From: an uncultured Prochlorococcus sp.
Lineage (GTDB): Bacteria > Cyanobacteriota > Cyanobacteriia > PCC-6307 > Cyanobiaceae
Direction: 5' to 3'
DNA length: 64,000 nucleotides
Assembly: GCA_902564535.1 (NCBI GenBank)
Contig: CACFBG010000003.1
Coordinates: forward strand, 51,456-115,455
The notes below the pieces were generated by a model. It searched no databases and was not told where the DNA came from. It saw only the letters and a list, made by a program, of their open reading frames with translations. Made by a program: the position numbers and the translations under genes. Positions 21,117 through 23,350 of this stretch are shown piece after piece; the first letter of the stretch is position 1; the number at the start of each line of letters is the position of its first letter.

Positions 21117-21320
21117 TTAAAAATTGGCGTTTCCAACCCCTGTATAAGAACCATAGAAGAAAAGACCAAGCACAAAGATAACTGCAATTCCTCCAGTTGT
21201 GGCTACTACCCATAATGGAAGTGAGCCTTCAGTCCATCTACGTTCCCAAGAAACAGATGGTCGTCCGTCAGGGAGTCGATCTGGTATGCGTCCATCAGGG
21301 CCGCGAAGTCCTTTACTCAT
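21117..21320 (-). CDS. psbJ: Photosystem II reaction centre protein J
   Basis: A 67-residue single-helix membrane protein of photosystem II, near cytochrome b559 and the quinone exchange region. The track ORF begins 17 codons too early (at 21371); the family start is [15 protein letters not shown], at ATG 21318-21320. The conserved body is [20 protein letters not shown], then the membrane helix, then the hallmark [14 protein letters not shown]. It is the last gene of psbE-psbF-psbL-psbJ, with 10 bp from the psbL stop. The 24-bp inverted-repeat terminator lies about 45 bp downstream. Confidence 0.96.
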
Positions 21321-21330
21321 GATTGGAAAT

Positions 21331-21450
21331 TCAGTTGAAGAAGTAGCTAGAGAACAAAATGCCCATGACAAAAACGAGCAATAAGCCTAGGTAAAGACTT
21401 GTGCGGTTAAGTTCAACCGGCAATTTGTTGGGGTTTGGATTTACTTGCAT
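21331..21450 (-). CDS. psbL: Photosystem II protein L
   Basis: A 39-residue protein missed by the ORF track because of its size: [20 protein letters not shown] followed by [19 protein letters not shown]. This is close to the universal PsbL sequence. It has one membrane helix at the photosystem II monomer interface, where the family is needed for dimer stability and plastoquinone function. The start is ATG at 21448-21450 and the stop TGA at 21331-21333. It lies 20 bp downstream of psbF. Confidence 0.97.
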
Positions 21451-21470: not shown

Positions 21471-21608
21471 TCAACGACGAATAAACTGCATTGCAGCTAT
21501 TGCACCTAGGAAAAATACCGTGGGTACACCCAAGGCATGAACCGCAAAAAACCTAACTGTGAAAATTGGGTACTCGCGTTGAGATTGGAGTGGAGCAGAT
21601 TGTGTCAT
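21471..21608 (-). CDS. psbF: Cytochrome b559 subunit beta
   Basis: A 45-residue protein not in the ORF track: [20 protein letters not shown] then [25 protein letters not shown]. It is the beta subunit of cytochrome b559, one membrane helix. The axial haem-ligand His is present at residue 24 in [13 protein letters not shown]. That matters because the partner PsbE lacks its ligand. The start is ATG at 21606-21608, 3 bp after the psbE stop, and the stop is TGA at 21471-21473. Confidence 0.97.
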
Positions 21609-21611
21609 GGC

Positions 21612-21860
21612 TTATTTCAAGCGCAGGTCTAGTTGGGACTTGGCCTCATAACGCTGACTCACAACAGGAGCTTTGGCTTCAGAAGCCTGAAAGTAGGTAT
21701 CAGGTGTAGGTGTACCAAATGTGTCATAGGCAAGACCTGTGGACACAAACAAAAAACCAGAGACAAAAATTGCCGGCAGAGTCACGATTTGGATAATCCA
21801 AAACTTGATGTCGGTAACTATCTCAAAAAACGGACGTTCGCCCGTTGATCCGGCAGCCAT
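21612..21860 (-). CDS. psbE: Cytochrome b559 subunit alpha with Gln at the haem-ligand position
   Basis: An 82-residue PsbE beginning [20 protein letters not shown], with the membrane helix and the luminal [14 protein letters not shown] typical of the family. In nearly all PsbE proteins the stromal end of the helix reads R-Y-W-V-I-H, where the His is the axial ligand shared with PsbF His. Here it reads [14 protein letters not shown]: residue 24 is Gln, encoded CAA (one base from His CAT/CAC), and the nearby Arg-Tyr is Lys-Phe. FGTPRP has also become FGTPTP. The frame is intact and embedded in a normal psbEFLJ operon behind rubA and ycf48, so the gene is expected to be expressed. See the findings. 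Confidence 0.96.
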
Positions 21861-21967: not shown

Positions 21968-22981
21968 TTAGCCGATCCATCTCAACAAAACCCCTCTTTC
22001 TCCAAGAACAAAACCTTTCTGGTTTGAGGAATCAAATCCAGAAGGGAAAAGGATTCTTATTAAATTGGAAGGCTGATTTGCTCCTATGGGATCACTTTCC
22101 CAACCTTTACCTCCATCCTTACTCACTAACAGTGTTCCATTGCCGCCTGCTGCCCATATATTTTTATTTGGATCCCAAGCAAGGTCAAGATAGTTATATC
22201 CGTTAACAATAGGAACTATTGGCTTAGACCAATTTTCTAAATCCTCCGAATTCTCGTTAAAGCGAATCTCTGCACCTCTGGAAAGCATCCAAAGCCCTTC
22301 TTCATTGGGTTTATAGCCAATACTTTGGACCCTTTTACTACTAGCCCTTTGATGGGGCTCCCAAGTATCAGCTCCTTTATCCAACGTAGCGAAGAAATTC
22401 CCAAGACTACTAACACTCACATAATTTCCAGCATCAGCGCGCCTTAAATCACGAATTCCTCCTGAAGCGTCATTAACCTGACCTTCCCAAGTAGATCCTG
22501 CATCAGTAGTCCTATATATAGCTCCTGCGGTGGTAGCCAGTTCAGCTTCATCTGAACCAAGAGTTTTAATCAAGTAAGGATCGCCTGGCAATTTATTTCC
22601 CAACAGCAATCGTGTCCAATTCTTACCAGCATCACTTGTATGCATTACCAAGCCAGGCTGGCCAGCGATCCAACCTTCATCTCCTCTAAAATCAATACTT
22701 ATCAACCTAAAATTCTCTGAATCAGGAATATCCAAAGACCTTTCCTTCCAATGCTCTCCTCCATCATTTGTCTCTAGGATCAAACGATTTGTTCCAACTA
22801 AAAACCCATTGCTGTCATCAACAAAAGCAATATCTAAAGGATTTGCTTGGGTTTCTAATTGAACCTCTTCCCATGGACTAGCAGTTGCCATAGGAAGCCT
22901 TGAGGCCACACAGCCAGAAAGACCTAGTCCAATACAAAGAGTAAGCAACAAATTAAATGAATAATCAATGAGGCGTTTCAT
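21968..22981 (-). CDS. ycf48: Photosystem II assembly/stability factor Ycf48 (HCF136)
   Basis: A 337-residue lumenal beta-propeller protein that assists early photosystem II assembly around D1. The N-terminus is a lipoprotein signal, [20 protein letters not shown] ending in the lipobox LSGC at about residue 24. Repeated BNR-like units follow, such as [40 protein letters not shown] and [20 protein letters not shown]. It lies between rubA and psbE on the same strand, the conserved rubA-ycf48-psbEFLJ order of cyanobacteria. It is separated from rubA by 12 bp and from psbE by 107 bp. Confidence 0.96.
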
Positions 22982-22993
22982 AGCAAATTACTT

Positions 22994-23350
22994 TCAATTC
23001 AAAGAATAAAGGGAAAGGAAACAAGCCAAAGCAAATGCTAAACCTCCAAAAATGAGCACATTTTTTTGGCCAGATGTGAGTTTGTTGACTCCAAAACCAT
23101 AATCCAGGTTCTCCTGAAAGCCACTAACTTGAGCTGGAGGCCCAATATCTCTAAAAAACTCAATCCTTGAACGACAAACAGGGCACCGGAATTCATCTTT
23201 ATCTAATTCAGAGAAACTAGTGCCTGCACTAATTCCGTATTTCTTAACTCCTTCTTTTGGATCATAAACATAGGAGCAAGATCGGCACTCATACAAATGA
23301 GATGCCAAATCAACTTCCTGTTTTAAAGATTCTCGATTTGATGAAGACAT
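22994..23350 (-). CDS. rubA: Membrane-anchored rubredoxin (RubA) for photosystem assembly
   Basis: A 118-residue protein with a rubredoxin domain at about 15-70: the two iron-binding pairs are YECRSCSYVYDP and DEFRCPVCRSRIEFF. A single C-terminal membrane helix follows (NVLIFGGLAFALACFLSLYSL). This is the thylakoid rubredoxin needed for photosystem II (and in some studies photosystem I) biogenesis. It heads the rubA-ycf48-psbEFLJ cluster and is divergent from ndhC across 155 bp. The start is ATG at 23348-23350. Confidence 0.95.
   Translation of the reverse strand: MSSSNRESLKQEVDLASHLYECRSCSYVYDPKEGVKKYGISAGTSFSELDKDEFRCPVCRSRIEFFRDIGPPAQVSGFQENLDYGFGVNKLTSGQKNVLIFGGLAFALACFLSLYSLN

Follow-up and report, generated by a model that had tools for sequence, protein, structure and literature searches.

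The psbE gene of an uncultured Prochlorococcus sp. encodes a cytochrome b559 alpha subunit (PsbE) that carries Gln24 in place of the haem-ligand histidine, and this glutamine belongs to a coordinated PsbE-PsbF-D2 module whose association is perfect in the genomes sampled. Judging from the sequences, the most likely reading is that the b559 haem has been lost in the lineages that carry Gln24. Throughout, the window denotes the whole 64,000-nt stretch of DNA that was analyzed, and the Gln and His genomes are those with the respective residue at PsbE position 24.

In the window, psbE occupies positions 21612–21860 of the minus strand, and its codon 24 (21789–21791, read from 21791 to 21789) is CAA. 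As originally predicted, the reading frame is open (82 aa) and the operon is intact: psbF (21471–21608; PF00283, 54 bits), psbL (21331–21450; PF02419, 81 bits) and psbJ (21117–21320; PF01788, 53 bits) follow on the same strand. The lumenal part of PsbE matches PF00284 with 62 bits against a cut-off of 25, and the haem-helix segment scores 26.5 bits for PF00283, just under the cut-off of 30. That cut-off was passed by only one of the 14 Gln PsbEs that we found (G001, 31 bits), and PsbE scored ~58–63 bits in 12 genomes that belong to other cyanobacterial families. By its lumenal domain and its position in psbEFLJ, the gene in the window is the cytochrome b559 alpha subunit by descent. Upstream of psbE on the minus strand lies an open frame at 21968–22981, presumably a ycf48-like gene for a putative PSII assembly factor, named from the gene order that we take to be usual; it adjoins psbE in the 117 loci compared. 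The next open frame (22994–23350, minus strand) is a rubredoxin-like gene, putatively rubA, a name that we base on the gene order and its CxxC pattern, and tblastn matches to it adjoined psbE in 33 of 34 genomes. Full-length D1 and D2 were found in the window genome, in the presumed MIT1307 genome and in others. The C-terminus of PsbJ differs among the Gln genomes (loci L193, L195, L196 and L200), reading YGSYNTM... in four of them (G041, G020, G021 and G045) and YGSYTG... in others, as in the His genomes.

Gln24 recurs. Our family sample held 400 genomes, 347 of them bearing psbE, and Gln24 was present in 14 of the 347, namely 13 drafts and one closed isolate genome; 13 of the 14 use CAA as the codon and one uses CAG. 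Five further pattern matches in the family sample sit away from psbE. Among 80 named Prochlorococcus loci retrieved from genome contigs, 12 have Gln and the other 68 have His, and the named Gln genomes were sampled at depths of 72–203 m in the Atlantic and Pacific. The closed Gln genome (G051, 2,032,419 bp) is presumed to be strain MIT1307xe, an LLVII-grade isolate with a closed genome at 317x coverage that grows phototrophically in culture (PMC11559063). The genomes presumed to be MIT1300xe (G057) and MIT1341xe (G031) are both of the His type. MIT1300xe is the LLVII strain with studied photophysiology, and the paper on it makes no mention of ‘psb’ or ‘cytochrome’ in its main text. Outside the family, a pattern scan of 390 genomes of the class gave many matches, and none of the eight loci retrieved from these was psbE; 12 genomes of other families, including the owners of those eight loci, have high-scoring b559 genes. 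The two solved PsbE chains that were compared in alignment, out of a set with 33 other matching sequences, have His.

We compared 117 loci (26 Gln and 91 His; some genomes enter two times, once under a record name and once under a G handle). First, the residues preceding the ligand differ throughout. The Lys-Phe noted in the original prediction in place of Arg-Tyr at codons 19–20 is part of a general pattern, since PsbE Arg19 and Tyr20 are absent in 26/26 Gln loci and present in 91/91 His loci. In the window, codons 17–20 (21801–21812, minus strand), on the haem-propionate side, read Asp-Ile-Lys-Phe instead of the usual Ser-Ile/Val-Arg-Tyr. Gln24 always occurs with Phe20, Lys19 or Asp19, Ser34 and a bulkier residue at position 25 in the 26 Gln loci, whereas the 91 His loci carry Ser17, Arg19, Tyr20 and Ala34 without exception. 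All Gln genomes have an Asp at PsbE 17 or 19, with Asp19 wherever Asp17 is missing. Second, PsbF is also changed: codons 20–21 (21546–21551, minus strand, in the window) encode Phe-Phe in 26/26 Gln loci and Trp-Leu in the 80 of 91 His loci that were readable. Of the two histidines of the haem site, then, the PsbE ligand is absent from the window genome and 13 further genomes, and PsbF His24 (CAT at 21539–21537, minus strand) is present in all Gln genomes, as was claimed for the window; PsbF Arg19 and PsbE Arg9 are likewise kept. In mature numbering, the haem propionates are held by PsbE Arg8 and Arg18 with PsbF Arg19, and changes at PsbE Arg18, Tyr19 and His23 alter haem ligation or potential (PMC4709441). 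Several of the haem-anchoring residues, though not all, thus appear to have been lost. The change of FGTPRP to FGTPTP in PsbE, which had been counted as part of the feature, does not belong to it, for several Gln genomes keep FGTPRP.

The substitutions extend to D2, although psbD is unlinked, lying ~155 kb from psbE in the presumed MIT1307 genome. D2 T118, L135 and L279 (numbered from the Prochlorococcus start) occur in 8/8 of the Gln genomes but in 0/21 of the His genomes; for A70 and L137 the counts are 8/8 and 1/21. The D2 link is drawn from the eight of 14 Gln genomes that gave a D2 sequence (the other six gave none). Residue 118 follows the ChlZ-D2-ligating His at a distance of two positions. 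D1 has no fixed Gln/His difference. D2 and b559 make up the first assembly module of PSII (PMC12661325). One His genome, G006 (psbD at L225), has a partially Gln-type D2 with Q9, I62, A70 and S154 and without T118, L135, L137 and L279, which is possibly an intermediate or a recombinant. Together, the changes in PsbF and D2 overturn the suggestion that the drift is local to this subunit; what we see is a conserved multi-subunit module rather than drift.

Among the Gln sequences, pN/pS came to 0.079 in psbE and 0.009 in psbF (counted from Tyr13 onward), with a synonymous difference of ~47%, and a single base change would turn the Gln codon into a His codon. The Gln-type PsbE is maintained under strong purifying selection and is not decaying. 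Conservation of the Gln itself indicates some function for it, possibly that of a weak ligand. These values also bear on the idea that Gln24 is a sequencing or assembly error, or marks a decaying psbE beside a canonical copy elsewhere. The window genome is indeed an incomplete draft (75% complete); however, Gln24 is shared by 14 genomes, one of them closed with high published coverage, pN/pS is low and the PsbF substitutions are coupled to it. A second, canonical psbE, named beforehand as one of the observations that would speak against the feature, was sought in the 14 Gln genomes and none was found, each having exactly one PsbE and one PsbF. We therefore consider error or decay to be practically negligible as an explanation.

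The history of the allele differs from that of its surroundings. The genome trees do not make the carriers of Gln24 a clade: a grouping of the Gln genomes by themselves is rejected by the concatenated genes flanking psbE (4176 columns; p-AU 2.6e-5), and rpoB/C1/C2 alone and rqcH alone point in the same direction without significance (p 0.139 and 0.092). The Ycf48 tree by itself was unresolved. In the tree from the combined genes (8093 columns), all Gln genomes used fall in one clade with 100/100 support in which eight His genomes are nested, including a branch with the high-light row G017, and the His genome G007 stands beside the Gln genomes G012 and G020 (support 98/99). When the trait codons were removed, psbEFL DNA rejected the flanking topology (p-AU 2e-8) and the fit of a Gln/His split equalled that of the best tree; the same was true of D2 once its trait columns had been taken out (p-AU 0.002). 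Since psbEFL groups the Gln lineages even without the trait codons and the genome trees do not, the data suggest that the Gln allele arose once and later recombined. D1 (loci L161–L172 and L242–L253), intended as a control, also strongly rejects the flanking topology; the conflict between gene and flanking trees is therefore not specific to b559 and D2, and PSII core genes in general seem to recombine in these lineages. A phage source for the Gln allele was considered and rejected: psbE matched nothing in 50,697 phage records; viral contigs gave a single weak partial psbE match, and phage D2 reached at most ~89% identity among the matches listed.

The combined tree also accommodates another history, in which the entire 21-genome clade descends from a Gln ancestor and its nested His lineages, with the branch that leads to the high-light Prochlorococcus among them, later regained His-type PsbE, PsbF and D2 by recombination. 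The 100/100 clade that unites all tested Gln genomes around eight nested His genomes fits this order of events; yet G007, with a His-type b559 and psbV, beside the Gln genomes G012 and G020 is more simply explained if Gln alleles were imported, and the evidence of the rpo genes or of rqcH by themselves against a single Gln clade falls short of significance. We regard ancestral Gln as a possibility of some weight, though not the one that we prefer. It concerns history only, says nothing about haem content and is compatible with a haem-free b559.

Compared to canonical b559, the Gln-type protein retains the psbEFLJ operon, the length, the lumenal domain, PsbF His24 and the gene order beside the ycf48-like and rubredoxin-like genes, but differs at the PsbE ligand, the propionate-side residues, PsbF Trp20-Leu21 and several D2 residues. 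The ligand residue has been replaced in a similar way in laboratory mutants of Synechocystis, where changing either His22 to Gln (among other residues) abolishes photoautotrophy and severely reduces PSII, and autotrophy is regained through 5–15 tandem copies of psbEFLJ (PMC4709441, PMC9214863). Unlike these mutants, the wild Gln lineages carry just one copy together with changed PsbF and D2, so that the PsbF and D2 changes may take the place of the gene amplification seen in the laboratory. In T. elongatus, PsbE H23A and H23M give apo-b559 with wild-type levels of active PSII (PMC4709441, PMC9214863), indicating that a haem-free scaffold can work. There, too, the PsbE ligand is lost and PSII is assembled, as we infer for the wild lineages; those mutants are engineered, in a PsbA3 background and with one residue changed, whereas the Gln lineages are natural, have the low-light type Gln130 in D1 and carry coadapted partners.

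We think it likely that b559 in the Gln lineages assembles without haem and serves only as a PsbE-PsbF scaffold for D2 and then for PSII assembly. The original prediction of altered or lost haem ligation, in a PSII that is presumably otherwise intact, gains from the recurrence, the PsbF and D2 coupling, the purifying selection and the single psbE; of the outcomes that it listed (a His/Gln site, a His-only site or lost haem), loss appears the most likely. The remodeled module of PsbE, PsbF and D2 has given up the two-histidine haem site. Gln24 may pack or hydrogen-bond against the retained PsbF His24; the added Asp at PsbE 17 or 19, which would repel haem propionates, could substitute for them next to the Arg residues that are left; and PsbF Phe20-Phe21 and the D2 substitutions would repack the pocket. 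The allele would have arisen once, and deep low-light lineages would have kept it or passed it on by recombination. Possible benefits include a smaller demand for photoprotective cycling where light is dim, an Mn cluster that is photoactivated more readily, and saved iron. The haem loss, the packing, the single origin and the benefits are inferred. In Chlamydomonas, H23C gives faster Mn cluster assembly in low light and inhibition in high light (PMC4709441, PMC9214863).

The counterpoint to a haem-free b559 is that PsbF His24, PsbF Arg19 and PsbE Arg9 are kept and could hold a five-coordinate haem. Accordingly, b559 might still bind haem, either five-coordinate through the PsbF His only or as His/Gln, at a much lower redox potential and with the PsbF and D2 changes retuning the pocket. 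The retained PsbF His24 with two propionate-side Arg residues is consistent with this, as is Synechocystis H22K-alpha, which keeps the haem with one ligand displaced and accumulates PSII with low-potential b559 (PMC4709441). On the other hand, the missing PsbE Arg18 and Tyr19 (mature numbering), the extra Asp and the change of PsbF Trp20 to Phe, taken together, make for a weaker site, and Gln for either His failed to support PSII in Synechocystis (PMC4709441). We hold retention of the haem to be rather unlikely.

The other PSII cytochrome, PsbV (cytochrome c550), gave no full match in any of the 14 Gln genomes, the closed one included. psbV is present in G007, in the presumed MIT1300 (G057), in the LLIV genome G029 and in G025; many His genomes lack it too, and its absence is therefore not diagnostic of the Gln type. 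G007 (G007:C1:73657–74064) and G057 (G057:C1:1656588–1656995) are the only two LLVII-like genomes tested that have psbV, and it may have been lost several times among LLVII-like genomes. With PsbV absent, an empty b559 would leave the PSII of the presumed MIT1307 entirely without haem. On balance, we favor the view that these lineages have a natural, widespread oxygen-evolving PSII with zero haem, in which b559 is a haem-free scaffold and the non-haem iron would be the sole PSII iron.

The role of the b559 haem in PSII is still unsettled (PMC12661325), and mutants of its ligands are confounded by poor assembly. The Gln lineages offer a natural experiment on whether this haem has an essential redox role: they have one cultured member, the water sample that yielded it also yielded isolates of His-type relatives, and their PsbF and D2 bear substitutions that may compensate. 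Should the haem indeed be absent, these Prochlorococcus would have a PSII that saves iron deep in the dim euphotic zone.
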